Below are positions 21,963 through 48,907 of a DNA stretch of 64,000 nt, piece by piece. Source of the stretch: Collinsella sp. AK_207A. Lineage in GTDB: Bacteria; Actinomycetota; Coriobacteriia; Coriobacteriales; Coriobacteriaceae. Under the pieces are notes generated by a model. It saw nothing but the letters and a program-made list of their open reading frames with translations, searched no databases and was not told the origin of the DNA. The position numbers and the translations under genes are program-made. Every line of letters begins with the position of its first letter. Within the stretch, counting starts at the first letter, position 1. The stretch is taken from the NCBI RefSeq assembly GCF_902501965.1, contig NZ_CABWID010000019.1:62001-126000 (forward strand), in the 5' to 3' direction.

Positions 21963-22838
21963 ATGCGCGTAGACGATATCTTCAAGCAGGCAAAACAGGC
22001 GGGCGCGCTCCCCGTCTCCTTTGAGATGTTCCCGCCCAAGGGAGACCTCACCATGGAGAAGGCCCGCGAGGTGGCAGGTTCCTGGGCCGAGCTGCACCCC
22101 GATTTCATCAGCGTCACGTACTCCGCCGGCGGCTCCGGCAACAAGGGCGCCACGGCAGACATCGCCCATATGATTACCGATGAGCTGGGTATTCCCTCGG
22201 TAGCTCACCTCACCTGCATCTCCCTTACCCGCGAGGGTCTCAAGGAGAAGATCGAGGACTTCCGCGCGCACGGCATCCGGAACGTGTTGGCGCTCCGCGG
22301 TGACGTACCGCACGATGCCTCGAACATCCCGGACACGCCCGACTTCCACTACGCCAAGGACATCATTCCTCAGCTGGTAGACGCCGGTTTCTGTGTGGGC
22401 GCGGCCGCCTACACCGAGGGGCACATCGAGTGCGACGACCTGCAGACCTCGATCGAGCACCTCAAGCAGAAGCAGGACGCGGGCGCGAGCTTCTTCGTCA
22501 CGCAGCTCTTCTTCGATAACGAGTACTTCTACCGCTTTCGCGAGCGCGCCGACAAGGCCGGTATCACCGTGCCCGTCACCGCCGGCATCATGCCGTTCAT
22601 GAGCAAGGACCAGGTTGCCCGCATGGTCTTCATGTGCGGCGCCTCGCTCCCCTCCCCCGTCATCAAGCTGCTGGCCCGCTACGAGAACGACCCGGATTCG
22701 CTCCGCGCCGCCGGCATCGAGTACGCCTGCCGCCAGCTCGAGAATCTGCGCGACCATGGCGCCGAGGGCCTGCACGTCTACGCCATGAACCGCCCGAGCG
22801 TCGCCCGCGCCTGCATGAGCGCGATCAGAGGCGCGTGA
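21963..22838 (+). CDS. metF: 5,10-methylenetetrahydrofolate reductase
   Basis: Makes 5-methyl-THF for methionine synthase; 291 residues. Family features: PVSFEMFPPKGD (catalytic Glu region), the HLTCISLTR strand, NVLALRGDVPHD, and FFVTQLFFDNEYFY. FAD-dependent, cytoplasmic. Its TGA stop overlaps the ATG of the next gene by one base (TGATG), so translation is coupled to the MetH reactivation protein, which gives metF a clear methionine-cycle context. Confidence 0.95.
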   Translation: MRVDDIFKQAKQAGALPVSFEMFPPKGDLTMEKAREVAGSWAELHPDFISVTYSAGGSGNKGATADIAHMITDELGIPSVAHLTCISLTREGLKEKIEDFRAHGIRNVLALRGDVPHDASNIPDTPDFHYAKDIIPQLVDAGFCVGAAAYTEGHIECDDLQTSIEHLKQKQDAGASFFVTQLFFDNEYFYRFRERADKAGITVPVTAGIMPFMSKDQVARMVFMCGASLPSPVIKLLARYENDPDSLRAAGIEYACRQLENLRDHGAEGLHVYAMNRPSVARACMSAIRGA

Positions 22839-23614
22839 TGACCTCGTCCGCTTCAGCCTCCGACGTTCCCGCCGGGCTCGCCCGCCCCGCCCTCTATCAA
22901 CCAACGGCCGACGAGCACCCTTGGCTCAACCGCGCGGAGATGCTTCGCTACCTGGGCTACTCAGGCCAGGACATCGAACCCGAACTCGAGCAGCGCATCG
23001 AGCACGTGGTCACGGACCTGGAGCGCGACATCTCCCCTCGCGGCGTGCGGCGCGTCTTTGCCGTGGACGCAAGCGAGACGGACGCCACCGGCGAACCCTG
23101 CATCCGCCTGATAGGCACCGCTGTGGAGCTCACCGGACGCGATATCTACCGTCATCTCAAAGACGCGCGTTACTGTGCGCTCCTCGCCTGCACCCTCGGT
23201 ATGGCGAGCGAGCGCAAGCTCCGCATGCTCGGCAGCCAGCACCCACTGGAAAGCGCCGTCTTCGATGCCGCTTGCTCGGCCTACGTGGAAGCGGCCGTCG
23301 GCCAGATGGACGACGCCGTGCGCGACAGCGCAGCCCAGCTGGGACTCTCTTGCAACTGGCGCTTCAGCTGCGGCTATGGAGACTGTCCGCTTGCCGCGCA
23401 GCGCAGCATCGTCGCCGCGCTCAACGCCGCGCGCCTGATCGGCCTCACCGTGACGCCCACCAACCTCTTGCTCCCCACGAAGAGCGTGACGGCGATGATC
23501 GGCCTCTTCGACGGCCCGGTACACGATGCCAAGAGCCGTCCCACCTGCAACATCTGCCGTCTCCGCGAGGAATGCCGGTTCCGCGCGCGCGGCACCACCT
23601 GCTACAGCGCGTAG
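22838..23614 (+). CDS. MetH reactivation-domain protein
   Basis: Stand-alone version of the C-terminal activation domain of B12-dependent methionine synthase, 258 residues. It binds S-adenosylmethionine and serves reductive remethylation of inactive cob(II)alamin. Signature near residues 175-215: RFSCGYGDCPLAAQRSIV followed by LIGLTVTPTNLLLPTKSVTAMIG. A Cys-rich end (CNICRLREECRF) is typical of the free-standing form. Translation is coupled to metF. The MetH encoded convergently lacks this domain, so the two should act together. Confidence 0.9.
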   Translation: MTSSASASDVPAGLARPALYQPTADEHPWLNRAEMLRYLGYSGQDIEPELEQRIEHVVTDLERDISPRGVRRVFAVDASETDATGEPCIRLIGTAVELTGRDIYRHLKDARYCALLACTLGMASERKLRMLGSQHPLESAVFDAACSAYVEAAVGQMDDAVRDSAAQLGLSCNWRFSCGYGDCPLAAQRSIVAALNAARLIGLTVTPTNLLLPTKSVTAMIGLFDGPVHDAKSRPTCNICRLREECRFRARGTTCYSA

Positions 23615-23841
23615 GGGCCTCTGCCCGGAGCGGGACGCCGGAGGGGCGTGCTCTCCGTTCTCGCGAAACTGGAAAACCTCGCGCCGAACGCGCAGGAACG
23701 AGCAAAACGAAGATGGGCGCGGTTTCAATTCGGGCCCGTTTCCGCTGCTCGTTCCTGGCGTTCGGCGTGAGGTTTCCTCAGTTCGCTCGAAAGGGGTCGC
23801 ACGCCCCTCCGGCGTCCCGCTCCGGGCCGAGGCCCCTACGC
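23609..23841. repeat. 233-bp imperfect inverted repeat at converging gene ends
   Basis: The outer 43 bases (23609-23651 and 23799-23841) match at 42 positions; further blocks (CGCCGAACGC, AGGAACGAGCA) carry the pairing inward to about 23704 and 23746. Both arms begin with GCGTAG, the last codon and stop of the gene on that side. Either strand would fold into a roughly 230-nt hairpin. Confidence 0.9.
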
Positions 23842-26415
23842 TCCGAAAACCTCCTCGGCGATGCGCGCGCTCTCCGCGGCATCCTTGGCGTAGTAGTCGG
23901 CGCCGATCTGCTCGGCGTACTCAGGCGTCAGCACCGCGCCGCCGACGATGATCTTCACCCCCGGCGCCTTGGCGTGGAGCAGCTTGATGGTCTCCTCCAT
24001 GTTGGCGACGGTCGTGGTCATGAGCGCGGAGAGGCCAACCAGATGGATATCGCGCTTGAGCACCTCGTCCAGCACGGCCTGTGGCTCCACATCGCGTCCG
24101 AGGTCGAAGACTGTGTAGCCATAATTGTCCAGCAGCATCTTCACGATGTTCTTACCGATGTCGTGGATGTCGCCCTTGACCGTGGCCAGCACGATCGAGC
24201 CCTTGTCCGCGATCTCGTTTGCGGGCATGAGGCGCTTGATGGTATCGAAACCCGCGCGCGCGGCCTCGGCGGAGGCCATGAGCTGCGGCAGGAAGAACTC
24301 GCCCTTGTCGAAGCGCTCGCCCACCTCGTCGAGCGCGGGGATGAACTGCTCGTTGATGAGCTCCATGGGATCGGTCGTCTTGAGCAGTTCCTCGGTAAGC
24401 GGCGCGACCTCGCCCTTGCGGCCCGAGATTACCAGCTGGCGAATGGAGCTGCTTGCACCCGCGCTCGTCCCCGCCGGCAGAGCCCCAGACGCGCTCGGCG
24501 CGCTCGGCGCGCTCGCGCCCGAAGCGCCAGAAGCACCCGCGCCGACGGGAACCTTGTACGGGTCGGCCCAGCCGGCATATCGCTCGATGAAGGCCACCGA
24601 GCCCTCGTCCTCGGCGTCGAGCACACGGTAGGCGCGCACGGCATCCATGTAGCGCGCGCTGCCCGGGTTCATGATCGGCGCATCCAGGCCGGCACCGAAC
24701 GCGGCCGAGAGAAACGTGGCGTTCAGCAGCTCGCGCGCGGGCAAGCCGAAGCTCACGTTGGAGACGCCGAGCGCGCACTTCACACCCAAGCGCTCCTTGC
24801 ACATGCTCACCGCGCGCAGGATCTGCTCCACCTGGCGCTGGTTGGTCGAGGCGGTCATGACCAGGCAGTCGATGAGGATGCGCTCGGGCCCGATCCCCCA
24901 GCGCGCGGCCTCGCCCACGATGCGCCGGGCGATGGCGAAGCGGGCCTCAGCCGTCTCGGGAATGCCGTCCTCGTCGAGCGCCAGGCCGATCACGTCCGTG
25001 CCGTAGTGCGCCACGATGGGGAAGATCTGGTCCATGATCTCGCGCTTGCCGTTCACCGAGTTGATGATGGGCTTGCCGGCGTAGCGGCGTACGGCGGCCT
25101 CCACGGCGGCGGGGTCGGTGGAATCGATCTGCAAGGGTAGCAGCGTGGCCGCGGACAGCGACTCCACGGCGCGCTGGATGGTCTCCACCTCGTCGATCTC
25201 GGGCAGGCCCACGTTCACGTCCAGGATGTCCGCACCCTGTTCCTGCTGGCTGATGCCCTGGCTCACCACGTAGTCCATGTCGCCCGCGCGCAGAGCCGCC
25301 TGCAGGCGCTTCTTACCGGTGGGGTTGATGCGCTCGCCGATAACGGCGATCCGATGCGCGGTCGCCGGCAGGCTCACCAGCGTCTGGGCCGAGGTGGTCG
25401 TGAGCGCGGGCGCAGGCGTGGCGGGGCGGACCTCCGGAGCGATGCCCCGCGGCTCGATGAGCCCGTTCAACAGGCGAATGTAGTCGGGGTTGGTGCCACA
25501 GCACCCGCCGACCACCCGCACGCCGTCCTCCACCATGCCGGCCACGGCGTCGGCGTACTCCTGCGGCGTGATGTCGTAGACCGTGCGCTCGTCTTCTACG
25601 CGCGGCAGGCCCGCATTGGCCTGCACCATGACGGGGCGGCTCGTGACCTCGAGCATGCGGGCGGCAAAGGGCCGGAGCTGTGCCGGGCCGAGCGAGCAGT
25701 TGATGCCCAGCACGTCCACGCCGAGCGCCTCGAGCGTCACCGCGGCAACCTCGGGGCTCGTGCCCAGGAAGGTACGCCCATCGGCCTCGAAGGTCATGGT
25801 AGCGAAGATGGGTAGGTTGGAGTTCTCCTTGGCGGCAAGCACCGCGGCCTTGATCTCGAGCAGGTCCGTCATGGTCTCGATGATGAAGAGATCCACGCCC
25901 GCGGCCACGCCGGCGCGCACCTCCTCGGCAAAGAGCTCGTAAGCCTCATCGAAGGTCATGGTGCCGAGCGGACGGAGCAGCGTGCCCAGGGGCCCGATGT
26001 CACCCGCCACGTAGCGCGCCCCAGAGTTGCGCGCGCACCGGACGGCAGCGGCAAAGACCTCGTCCACGGTGTACGCGCCGCCGCCCTCCGCCTCGAGCTT
26101 GGCCCGGTTAGCGCCAAAGGTGTTGGTGGTGACGACCTCGCTTCCCGCCGCCACATACGCGGCATGGATGCCCGTCACCTCATCCGGGTTGCTGATGCAG
26201 AGGAGCTCAGGCAGCGCGCCCGCCTCGAGCCCCGCGGCCTGCAGCATGGTACCCATGCCGCCATCGAACAGCAGATGGCGCTCACCGGCGAGCACGGCGG
26301 TCAGATCGGCGTCCGCCACCTGCAGCTTCGAACGGTCTCGTGGCTCGTAGGCGGCAGCATGTGCCCCCAGCCCGGTCAGGCGGTTCACGTAATCGAGCGG
26401 TGCCGGCTTCGCCAT
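23836..26415 (-). CDS. metH: B12-dependent methionine synthase, lacking the reactivation domain
   Basis: Transfers methyl from 5-methyl-THF to homocysteine; 859 residues. Domains in order: homocysteine-binding (zinc cysteines in NCSLGPAQ and GGCCGTNP), pterin-binding (IGERINPTGKKRL), an Ala/Ser/Gly/Pro-rich linker near 625-660, the cobalamin cap, and the B12 domain with the cobalt ligand in GDIHDIGKNIV. It ends after the B12 domain, where E. coli MetH has a further domain of about 330 residues; that function is encoded convergently next door. The ATG at 26415 has AGGGAG upstream. No B12 or SAM riboswitch was recognised upstream. Confidence 0.95.
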   Translation of the reverse strand: MAKPAPLDYVNRLTGLGAHAAAYEPRDRSKLQVADADLTAVLAGERHLLFDGGMGTMLQAAGLEAGALPELLCISNPDEVTGIHAAYVAAGSEVVTTNTFGANRAKLEAEGGGAYTVDEVFAAAVRCARNSGARYVAGDIGPLGTLLRPLGTMTFDEAYELFAEEVRAGVAAGVDLFIIETMTDLLEIKAAVLAAKENSNLPIFATMTFEADGRTFLGTSPEVAAVTLEALGVDVLGINCSLGPAQLRPFAARMLEVTSRPVMVQANAGLPRVEDERTVYDITPQEYADAVAGMVEDGVRVVGGCCGTNPDYIRLLNGLIEPRGIAPEVRPATPAPALTTTSAQTLVSLPATAHRIAVIGERINPTGKKRLQAALRAGDMDYVVSQGISQQEQGADILDVNVGLPEIDEVETIQRAVESLSAATLLPLQIDSTDPAAVEAAVRRYAGKPIINSVNGKREIMDQIFPIVAHYGTDVIGLALDEDGIPETAEARFAIARRIVGEAARWGIGPERILIDCLVMTASTNQRQVEQILRAVSMCKERLGVKCALGVSNVSFGLPARELLNATFLSAAFGAGLDAPIMNPGSARYMDAVRAYRVLDAEDEGSVAFIERYAGWADPYKVPVGAGASGASGASAPSAPSASGALPAGTSAGASSSIRQLVISGRKGEVAPLTEELLKTTDPMELINEQFIPALDEVGERFDKGEFFLPQLMASAEAARAGFDTIKRLMPANEIADKGSIVLATVKGDIHDIGKNIVKMLLDNYGYTVFDLGRDVEPQAVLDEVLKRDIHLVGLSALMTTTVANMEETIKLLHAKAPGVKIIVGGAVLTPEYAEQIGADYYAKDAAESARIAEEVFGA

Positions 26416-27128
26416 GATGCGCTCCCTAGCAGAGAAGGTCGGTTCATGCGGCATCAGTATACGCGCCCCGACGCCGCCCGCGGCGAGAGGCCCGCGTTGT
26501 CACAGCCTGGAGACGGGAAGGCGTCAACCGCCGCACCGGTCGGGGGATCTCCAGCACATGGGAGCGATAGGCGTTCACCTGGAGCGCAACGCGACCGGCT
26601 GGTGCCGTCGCAGGCGCGTCGGCGGGGCGGCGGTCGTCGAGGGGGCGTTCTCAGACAACCTCGAGGGGATCGCGTGGACTGGACCACGATCGACGGTCCC
26701 GAAGGGGGACGCACACCACTTTTTTCGCCGCACGGCTGCAAGACCGGTGGGAGAAGCTCAGTTCTGTAAAGTTCCCGGGGGCTTTTCAGGGTGACAGCGC
26801 TCCCAAACCGGCTTTACATGGGGTGCTGGGCCCACGTTGCACCACATTCTTATCTAATTTGTTCAGTAACATGAGGGGCTTGGACCGCGTTGGTGACCAT
26901 AGACGCTCCCCAACTATACAGAACTGAGCTTATTCCACCATTTTTGGAGCGGATTCGAGAAAAAGTGGCGGGAGAACCACAGCGAAGGCGTCTCGGGGCG
27001 CTGGAGACGCATGTGCAGGGGTGGTTTTTTGAATAATGAGAAGCGTCCCCAAAATGGGAGAGGCCGGCGGCTGCGGGGTTGGACGCGGCCGTCGACCTCC
27101 TGCAGGGCGCTTAAACAGAGAGAACGGT
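26416..27128. other. 713-base intergenic region: metH promoter side and a repeat element
   Basis: No coding region supported. Near metH a TATACT box lies on the minus strand. The middle holds the 194-bp element with terminal inverted repeats. The right part has two hairpins: GCGTCTC / GAGACGC (26988-26994 with 27004-27010), and GTGG / CCAC (26965-26980) followed by five T on the minus strand, a weak terminator candidate for the surface phosphoesterase gene. Confidence 0.4.
26746..26939. mobile_element. 194-bp element with 28-bp terminal inverted repeats (MITE or invertible DNA)
   Basis: The left end (26746-26773) and the reverse complement of the right end (26912-26939) agree at 25 of 28 bases, sharing AAGCTCAGTTCTGTA. 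The roughly 140-base interior has no ORF of note but a further palindrome at 26815-26845. No target-site duplication is obvious. It is either a non-autonomous transposon relic or an invertible segment. Confidence 0.55.
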
Positions 27129-43450: not shown

Positions 43451-43491
43451 CGATTTATCTTCGTCTCCACAGATAAATGCCGCAGGCAAAC

Positions 43492-43547
43492 GCCGTACCG
43501 CCGAACGGGAAAAGGGCTTCGTCCGTTTCCCCGTTCGGCGGTACGGC
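43492..43547 (-). terminator. Hairpin after the patatin gene
   Basis: Perfect 18-bp stem (43492-43509 with 43530-43547), 13 bases after the patatin stop. Little U follows, but the stem is strong and separates the gene from the rplM promoter. Confidence 0.65.
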
Positions 43548-43559
43548 GAGCCCGTGCTT

Positions 43560-48198: not shown

Positions 48199-48563
48199 GG
48201 GGGCGACTGGTTTCGACACGATAGCTCTGAGAGAGGAAGCAGGCCGTGGTCTCCTCGCCACGTTAAACAGGGGTACCGTCAAATTGAATTGACAACAACT
48301 CTTCTTATGAGCCTCTGGCTCTCGCTGCTTAATTAATTTGCGGCGCGTCGACCCGGGGATTTCCCCGACTCCGGTGAGACGTCATTTCAGGGGAATGCTC
48401 CCGCGCACGTAATCGGTATGGCGCGGGCTAAGACCGAACCGGTTGGGGTTTCGCGAGCGTGTCGCTTCGCGCAAGAAGCCCGAGATTAAATAAGCGACTG
48501 AGCCTGGAGATGCCGATCAGGGGGCTTTCGTGGACCGGAGTTCGATTCTCCGCGCCTCCACCA
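48199..48563 (+). ncRNA. ssrA: Transfer-messenger RNA (tmRNA)
   Basis: 365 nt. The 5' GGGGGCG pairs with CGCCTCC before A-CCA at 48560-48563; GGTTTCGACA and the terminal GTTCGATTC T-loop are the usual tmRNA marks. The tag frame runs from about 48292 to the TAA at 48331 and ends DNNSSYEPLALAA, with the ALAA degron. The exact resume codon is uncertain because a TGA lies two codons before the Asp. Rescues stalled ribosomes with SmpB. Confidence 0.96.
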
Positions 48564-48572
48564 TTAGTTCAG

Positions 48573-48610
48573 TGCGCCCTGTAGCCGCCTAGGCCGCAGG
48601 GCGCATTTTC
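48573..48610 (+). terminator. Terminator of ssrA
   Basis: 9-bp stem TGCGCCCTG / CAGGGCGCA (48573-48581 with 48597-48605), then TTTTCATTT. Confidence 0.85.
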
Positions 48611-48637
48611 ATTTCCGTACCGCGGAGAATCGAACTC

Positions 48638-48907
48638 CTATGCGATGTTTCGCCCATGCGGCAGGGCAACGAACTCGAGTAGGTCACGGATAGAGTCGTA
48701 GCGATACACGATGACAAACGGCGGGAACGGCAGTTTGCGGATGTCCGGGCCATAATCGTCTCGCAGGGATTTCTGTACGTTCGGAGAGCCTATGCCGGGA
48801 AGGGCTTCGATTGACGCGAGTACTCCGTCAAGGCGCATCCGGAGCTTTTCGGACACGATATCTGCAACAGACTCTGCAAACTGATTAGAATAACTTACCT
48901 CACGCAT
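48638..48907 (-). CDS. RelE/ParE-type toxin
   Basis: 89 residues. Pattern of the RelE/ParE fold: YSNQFAESVADIVSEKLRMRLDGVLASIEALPGIGS, then IRKLPFPPFVIVYRYD and a short C-terminal strand (DLLEFVALPHGRNI). Overlaps the end of the antitoxin gene by 8 bases, the common order. It could act as an mRNA interferase or gyrase poison; the sequence does not say which. Lies just after ssrA on the opposite strand. Confidence 0.8.
   Translation of the reverse strand: MREVSYSNQFAESVADIVSEKLRMRLDGVLASIEALPGIGSPNVQKSLRDDYGPDIRKLPFPPFVIVYRYDSIRDLLEFVALPHGRNIA

Follow-up and report, generated by a model that had tools for sequence, protein, structure and literature searches.

Large gene-end hairpins with a short constant core and variable, matching arms appear to form an undescribed family

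Introduction

Mobile intergenic repeats of the ERIC/MITE-like kind are recognised by sequence over their whole length. They are units of about 100-170 bp that lie in intergenic DNA in many copies, according to the available parts of PMC2759123 and PMC2229807, and in this they resemble the element described here, which differs in that only a core is conserved. REP and BIME sequences, tagged with GTAG or CGTC, are likewise dispersed palindromes that lie mostly downstream of coding regions, and many of them are probably transcribed (PMC3733652, available in part). The same part of that source gives REPs a length of 20-40 bp and a terminal unpaired tag, GTAG or CGTC beside a stem of 5-13 bp (8-9 bp for CGTC), whereas the present element measures about 70 to 300 bp, carries its core inside the hairpin and has outer arms that are unrelated between the copies of its own genome. 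Its copies there are 62-303 nt long as computed, with at least two cut short inside their arms; 37 further copies (37 of 85 loci passed the filters) have a median length of 110 and a median outer stem of 28 pairs, and in the consensus of 47 copies CGTC lies within the hairpin, flanked by a stem on either side, and a terminal tag is absent.

Intrinsic (Rho-independent) terminators are similar to the element in that a GC-rich hairpin stands directly behind the stop codon of a gene, and in some species a plain hairpin stands at groEL. The element differs from them in its conserved core, the length of its outer stem and a U-tract that is usually missing. Palindromic structured-RNA candidates from the human microbiome, which occur on both strands and of which 230 of 250 are predicted terminators (PMC8040213, in its available part), are alike by description. 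Template switching has been proposed to make and repair stems (PMC8794818, available in part), with perfect stems and multibase compensatory change in one event as the point of likeness; the stems treated in that part belong to RNA genes, whereas we deal with a dispersed element with an imperfect core. In yeast, quasi-palindrome mutation rises with transcription, as stated in the accessible portion of PMC3820800. Collinsella-1 (RF01700) is an Rfam family named in PMC2864571 (seen in extract); it had no match to the element among the Rfam families tested, and no family reached its gathering score at the element in the window region or at eight relative loci. In the open-access literature searched, nothing was recognised as a description of the element. 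The large hairpins appear to be an undescribed family that also occurs in numerous related genomes; its short core is constant, and its long arms are variable yet matching.

Results

A 233-nt hairpin between two convergent genes

The window, that is, the whole stretch of DNA analysed, comprises 64,000 nt (G000:C19:62001-126000) from the genome of a member of the Coriobacteriia, which measures 2.12 Mb and is assembled in 24 contigs. Direct reading and a repeat search found at 23609-23841 an inverted repeat of 233 nt, a single hairpin between two convergent genes (Table 1). A sequence-only reading had described this repeat as having 42 of 43 matching outer bases and as starting at both ends with GCGTAG, the last codon and stop of both genes; both descriptions hold, the former also against shuffled sequence. 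According to the repeat search, the outer arms of 43 nt each are 98% complementary and separated by 147 nt, and they continue inwards imperfectly (76%) at 23655-23691/23758-23794 and perfectly over 12 nt at 23693-23704/23746-23757. The inner 147 nt is no loop and contains further arms and the conserved part of the element, in which the three outer core pairs of this copy are UUC/GAA, not UCC/GGA. The whole hairpin folds with -206.6 kcal/mol on the + strand (z -18.7; equalled by 0 of 200 shuffles) and with -200.3 kcal/mol on the - strand (z -18.3), and its gapless hairpin score of 40 compares with a best score of 15 when the 64-kb window was dinucleotide-shuffled 60 times. Chance or composition as the source of the hairpin was ruled out by these z-scores and shuffled windows.

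The protein of the upstream sense gene had no NCBIfam match, and the true start of this gene is probably further in than listed. The gene on the opposite strand is presumably metH, a name that we gave it from its sequence.

Table 1 Features of the hairpin and its two flanking genes (window coordinates)
Feature	Position	Strand	Remarks
Upstream sense gene	22634..23614	+	3' end overlaps left arm by 6 nt; ORF as listed
Left outer arm	23609..23651	+	Copy-specific; first 6 bases are last codon and stop of the + gene; absent from other copies
Conserved left core TCTCGCGAAACTGG	23659..23672	+	From alignment of 13 copies
Left inner helix	23673..23703	+	Variable yet compensated
Second conserved stretch AAAACGAAGATG	23704..23715	+	Precedes apical loop; partner CCGC at 23742-23745
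Right inner helix	23746..23775	+	Partner of left inner helix
Conserved right core TCAGTTCGCT	23778..23787	+	Imperfect partner of left core, fixed bulges
Right outer arm	23799..23841	+	Complementary 42/43; last 6 bases are last codon and stop of metH
metH-like gene	23836..26454	-	3' end overlaps right arm by 6 nt

The core recurs with other arms in the same genome

The sequence-only reading had proposed a blastn search with one arm, and had counted arms absent from every sister strain against the palindrome. BLASTN within the genome gave a divided answer, the outer arms being unique and the inner part recurring elsewhere, and because the arms differ at every copy, their absence from sister strains cannot separate the cases. 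Thirteen copies aligned by the inner part have TCGCGARACTGG or a near form on the left and CAGTTCGCT or a near form on the right; these core halves pair imperfectly with fixed bulges, a second conserved stretch follows near the tip, and the core spans 127-129 nt in all 13. The left-core pattern with at most one mismatch occurs at 35 places in the genome, against 7 for a backward control.

A covariance model built from aligned copies, R1, found 38 distinct places, with a single count per hairpin and without one weak match (E 0.36), and a few further candidates came from pattern search and from a second model, R2 (below). The 38 places divide into 20 long copies and 18 short ones. In the short class the long inner part gives way to a small AAAACGGCTTYGCCGTTTT-like hairpin, and the groEL copy is intermediate. 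The short copies were accepted because each of them shows the core. Weak R1 matches alone prove little, since a perfect, REP-like palindrome in G040 is matched by this model as well (both strands, E 3.5e-6). Every copy in the genome differs from the others and the outer arms are unrelated, the same core being found with different arms behind other genes. This speaks against the inversion-duplication of a gene end that had been offered as an origin, as does the fact that only GCGTAG is genic. In one copy (L036/L066, G000:C24:75470-75628) the left core is the complement of the right core, the fixed mismatches are lost and the palindrome is nearly perfect.

A shorter core is widespread in the order

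By BLASTN, 3 of 42 relatives from the genus had one match of 43-50 nt at 1e-3, and R1 matched 0 of 42 genomes of the genus, 0 of 64 of the family and 0 of 394 of the order (seven candidates scored per genome in the order search). The species-private repeat that these searches suggested was overturned by a shorter core in relatives. Hairpins in 20-kb samples of sister species carry TCCTCGCG...CGCTGCGG, which forms the outer half of the core in the short class, and a pattern search for this half found a recurrent long-armed form in several genera together with many chance matches, the backward control giving similar counts in many genomes.

Model R2 was built from 14 sites, all of other species and originally found by the exact core pattern, so that core invariance is partly circular. 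Among the copies of the genome under study, R2 matched 13 of the 18 short ones, including that of groEL (11 with E at most 0.01, one 0.021 and one 0.55), one further place and 0 of the 20 long ones, the window copy included. The place of the window copy in the wider family therefore rests on the short class, to which the long class is tied by R1 and by the common core. A whole-genome search with 150 of 3,403 candidates scored gave two places at E at most 0.01, and the order scan, with 12 candidates scored per genome, gave none in this genome. Across the order, the scan found matches in at least 114 of 395 genomes and at least 22 of 123 genera, lower bounds at this number of scored candidates, and all but three of the 114 positive genomes fall within two families; with more scoring, 2-18 matches were found in each of 12 chosen genomes. 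In 700 kb of sister DNA, R2 found five strong places, two of them (L225, L233) training sites. The earlier suggestion of a dispersed palindromic element is borne out by the 38 places in one genome and by the short core relative in 114 of 395 genomes of the order.

In 47 aligned R2 matches, 7 of which are in the model, the core CGTCCTCG...CTGCGG is nearly invariant. Its order-wide form, GUCCUCG ... CUGCGG, contains as drawn a U.C mismatch and one bulged U, and the sole pair that varies much is U-A in 37 rows and U-G in 10. At the metH loci of one genus, 0 of 30 had an R2 match, including the window's own locus, which carries a long copy, and none of the metH orthologues read in 29 sister genomes has a window-type core behind it.

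A scan of named genomes with the long core returned at least 105 stretches from many phyla, which we read as chance; among the 80 matches listed, 27 make at least 10 pairs between the motif halves. Viral contigs gave 2, 8 and 14 matches, and inspection of these 24 found no convincing copy. One contig listed as viral has a short core with 35 outer pairs (L408:7424-7445) that might be a prophage-carried copy, and two other viral-contig matches have 22 (L410) and 18 (L405) outer pairs. In G041, two core hairpins stand about 140 nt apart in the same orientation (L313:1362-1432 and 1501-1573), and ZMP/ZTP riboswitch matches lie about 1 kb from the core hairpins of two relatives (L247:2372-2457, L260:2476-2561).

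The hairpins stand behind genes in the sense orientation

At 30 loci from the order scan, the upstream coding frame is in sense at 29 and its stop lies at most 80 nt from the match at 24. The six outside the latter count are L309, which is antisense, L303, which has an earlier in-frame stop (by another reading, its gene ends 17 nt before the hairpin), and L310, L313, L319 and L324, where no stop is close by. Since they include orthologue sets (formate-tetrahydrofolate ligase, phosphoribosylformylglycinamidine synthase, rplX) and three pyruvate:ferredoxin oxidoreductase sites, the 30 loci are not independent of one another. In the genome under study, a gene ends in sense no more than 41 nt from 28 of the 38 copies (14 of 20 long, 14 of 18 short). 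Ten copies remain: seven follow a gene of the opposite strand, two lie between divergent genes and one is unclear. The long copy at G000:C4:41994-42144 lies between divergently read genes, against the 3'-end rule.

Among the genes that precede copies in this species are groEL, rplX, one for a class II aldolase, rpoD, grpE, htpG, leuA, ilvC, prs, rho and gltX; of 28 upstream proteins tested, three had no family match at the set limit, besides the window's own. In other genera, the upstream genes include groEL, rplX and those for class II aldolases, pyruvate:ferredoxin oxidoreductase, formate-tetrahydrofolate ligase and phosphoribosylformylglycinamidine synthase, and the rplX site is common to this species and another genus. 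We take these host genes to be highly expressed. Downstream of groEL, where copies occur in many genera, an R2 match was found in 16 of 29 genomes, and the remaining groEL 3' ends have a plain hairpin or a hairpin with a different loop; in this comparison the groEL stop was misplaced for L380 and L385. Another loop, TGTTCGA ... TCAGAACA, recurs behind groEL in G023 and G016 (L366, L372; compare L381 of G029), and perhaps represents a second module family.

U-tracts are scarce behind the stems

Five T in ten, taken as a U-tract, follow the stem in none of the 20 long copies of the genome and in 4 of the 18 short ones; for two copies (C14:208644, C15:82717) the computed edge fell inside the arm, and the edge taken by eye is still followed by fewer than five T in ten. 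T-rich windows are found behind 7 of the 37 further copies, against 9 of 37 in the control, and a GCGTT/CGTTT tail behind 10 of 37, against 1 of 37. Intrinsic termination is therefore without support from these tracts, and marking or protection of the 3' end by a putative bound factor is proposed. The position and sense orientation of the copies suggest that the core would act in the mRNA 3' end or while that end is being made, and the U-G tolerance at its varying pair fits a reading as RNA.

Arms differ wholly at some orthologous sites, and mismatches show no clear G-U excess

In the inner helices of the 13 aligned copies, 31 of 44 pairs have at least one two-sided change; pairing amounts to 94.2% of cells and drops to 75.0% on shuffling and to 35-47% if the partner is slid. 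At a site in genus g3, G050 and G054 have the same element (L336, L340) and G053 has other arms (L338), with upstream flanks 97-99% and downstream flanks 92-94% identical. Likewise, at a first site in the window's genus, G009, G010, G012 and G031 share one arm set (L343, L345, L346, L348) and G002 and G024 (L347, L352) have another that is wholly different, between flanks that are 92-96% identical upstream and 88-93% downstream (for G009, about 110 nt aligned, at 84-87%). At a second site, L341, L350 and L351 have the outer arm of L353 but not its inner hairpin, and at a third the arms differ next to a 98% identical upstream flank, with the downstream flank also different (L344, L349 versus L358). 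Within G002, loci L353 and L357 have the same outer arm around different inner hairpins, and L354 and L356 have nearly the same inner hairpin within different outer arms, which argues that blocks may have been exchanged. Elements of the G001/G002 type (L341-L358) have a nested inner hairpin inside the core, often TCCTGCTCC...GGAGC, with arms and hairpins mixed between loci.

In nine chosen sets of orthologues that share their arms, from which the reversed pair L334/L328 was left out, variation was seen at 36 of 451 hairpin pairs. Ten of the 36 are two-sided and all Watson-Crick, seven of these coming from the four long-type sets; the other 26 include a one-sided state (7 G-U, 4 A-C, 15 other). 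Template switching would therefore not be the sole process. Isolated mismatches within helices amount to 18 G-U, 13 A-C and 16 other beside 3,082 Watson-Crick pairs, a count in which 17 of 70 relatives are missing (no exact core, or duplicate). Selection on RNA pairing would be expected to give an excess of G-U, of which these few events give no clear sign. An earlier count over whole arms (34 G-U and 35 A-C in the genome under study, 28 and 20 in relatives), which includes fixed core mismatches and tails and omits 2 of 38 own copies and 13 of 70 relatives, is superseded by the count of isolated mismatches. The replacement of arms between orthologues, the exchange of blocks, the mismatch spectrum and the copy at C24:75470 fit a process in which one arm would be copied onto the other. 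The core is imperfect in nearly all copies, which argues for selection on it.

Discussion

The explanation that we prefer, and to which we give an even chance, is that the window palindrome is an enlarged version, specific to its lineage, of a gene-3'-end hairpin element found in the order; the core of this element would act in the sense transcript, and its arms would largely be rewritten by template switching in replication. Read as RNA, the core would mark, end or protect the mRNA 3' end by binding a putative factor. Template switching would copy one arm onto the other, so that both change at once, selection on the core would resist this copying, and exchange between copies would replace an entire inner hairpin or outer arm in one piece. 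In the species under study, further modules may have been placed inside the first, giving hairpins of 200-300 bp, and the window hairpin, which separates two convergent genes, would serve both transcripts. We also put forward, tentatively, a more far-reaching form, in which the hairpins are a class of self-rewriting elements: a core cassette in the 3'-end hairpins of housekeeping genes would be recognised in the transcript, imperfect as it is, by a trans-acting factor, the arms would be re-synthesised as complements by template switching in replication, with a faster turnover of the stems than of the genes beside them, and cassettes would be nested to 300 bp.

If the preferred explanation is true, the family would be a natural case of RNA stems kept largely by a DNA mechanism and less by selection on pairing, with an orthologous series at hand for a direct test of such DNA-level upkeep. 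Covariation, the usual proof of a selected RNA structure, would need a second reading here. The element would also be a widespread, unnamed 3'-end element of the order, and its core could be used to fish out the putative binding partner.

The main rival to a 3'-end mark or protection is a mobile non-autonomous cassette, a possible though doubtful alternative, in which a putative transposase would insert the cassette in sense into terminator hairpins and nest it in earlier copies. Such movement would account for groEL genes that have a plain hairpin, an R2 module or another module in different species, for an outer stem GGAAGCCC-GGAGG that is alike by eye in plain and filled form (L378, L381), for the common outer arm of two G002 loci and the nearly common inner hairpin of two, and for nested modules in G002-type copies and in the species under study. 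However, transposons and MITEs are judged by conserved termini and target duplications, and here the termini are not conserved, the outer arms being unrelated between copies, and no target duplication was seen by eye; moreover, occupied sites are often common to several species, and none of the 24 viral-contig matches was convincing as a copy on inspection, with L408 a possible one.

We consider it unlikely that the hairpins are structured RNAs under ordinary compensatory selection, with arms that pair because the RNA hairpin must form. The strong covariation, the sense orientation, the U-G tolerated at the core pair and the one-sided intermediates between orthologues, seven of them G-U, agree with this, but G-U is not clearly above A-C among isolated mismatches or between orthologues, and whole arms are replaced at orthologous sites. 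The stable 3' RNA structure of the sequence-only reading stands as regards position and orientation (24 of 30 loci in relatives, 28 of 38 own copies) and lacks in the mismatch spectrum any sign of selection on RNA pairing.

That the hairpins are ordinary, unusually long bidirectional terminators, with a core of no special function, is very unlikely: they do lie at gene ends, and plain hairpins are found behind the same genes in sister species, but the core is nearly invariant across two families of the order and the long class is without U-tracts. The palindrome had been called far beyond a terminator, which is right as to its size; at groEL its relatives take the place that plain hairpins have in sister species, but the long class is without U-tracts. 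Assembly is difficult for palindromes, but an artefact of this kind is extremely unlikely, as every copy in the genome differs and hairpins of the wider family are present in the one-contig genomes G002, G037, G123 and G124.

Other palindromes were seen beside the gene-3'-end hairpin element. An inverted repeat at 48537-48638 of the window has an arm, GGAGTTCGATTCTCCGCG, that resembles the 3' part of a tRNA; the idea that it holds tRNA parts found no support, ARAGORN finding no tRNA gene in 48300-48900. A plain hairpin of 23 bp with a 12-nt loop at 43491-43548 of the window is unlike the family and is possibly an ordinary bidirectional terminator. In relatives, other dispersed REP-like palindromes with GGGGACGTACCT-, GGGGACGGGTTCG- or GGGGACAGGCAC-like motifs occur at L215-L218 (G014), L234, L238, L239, L242 and L243.
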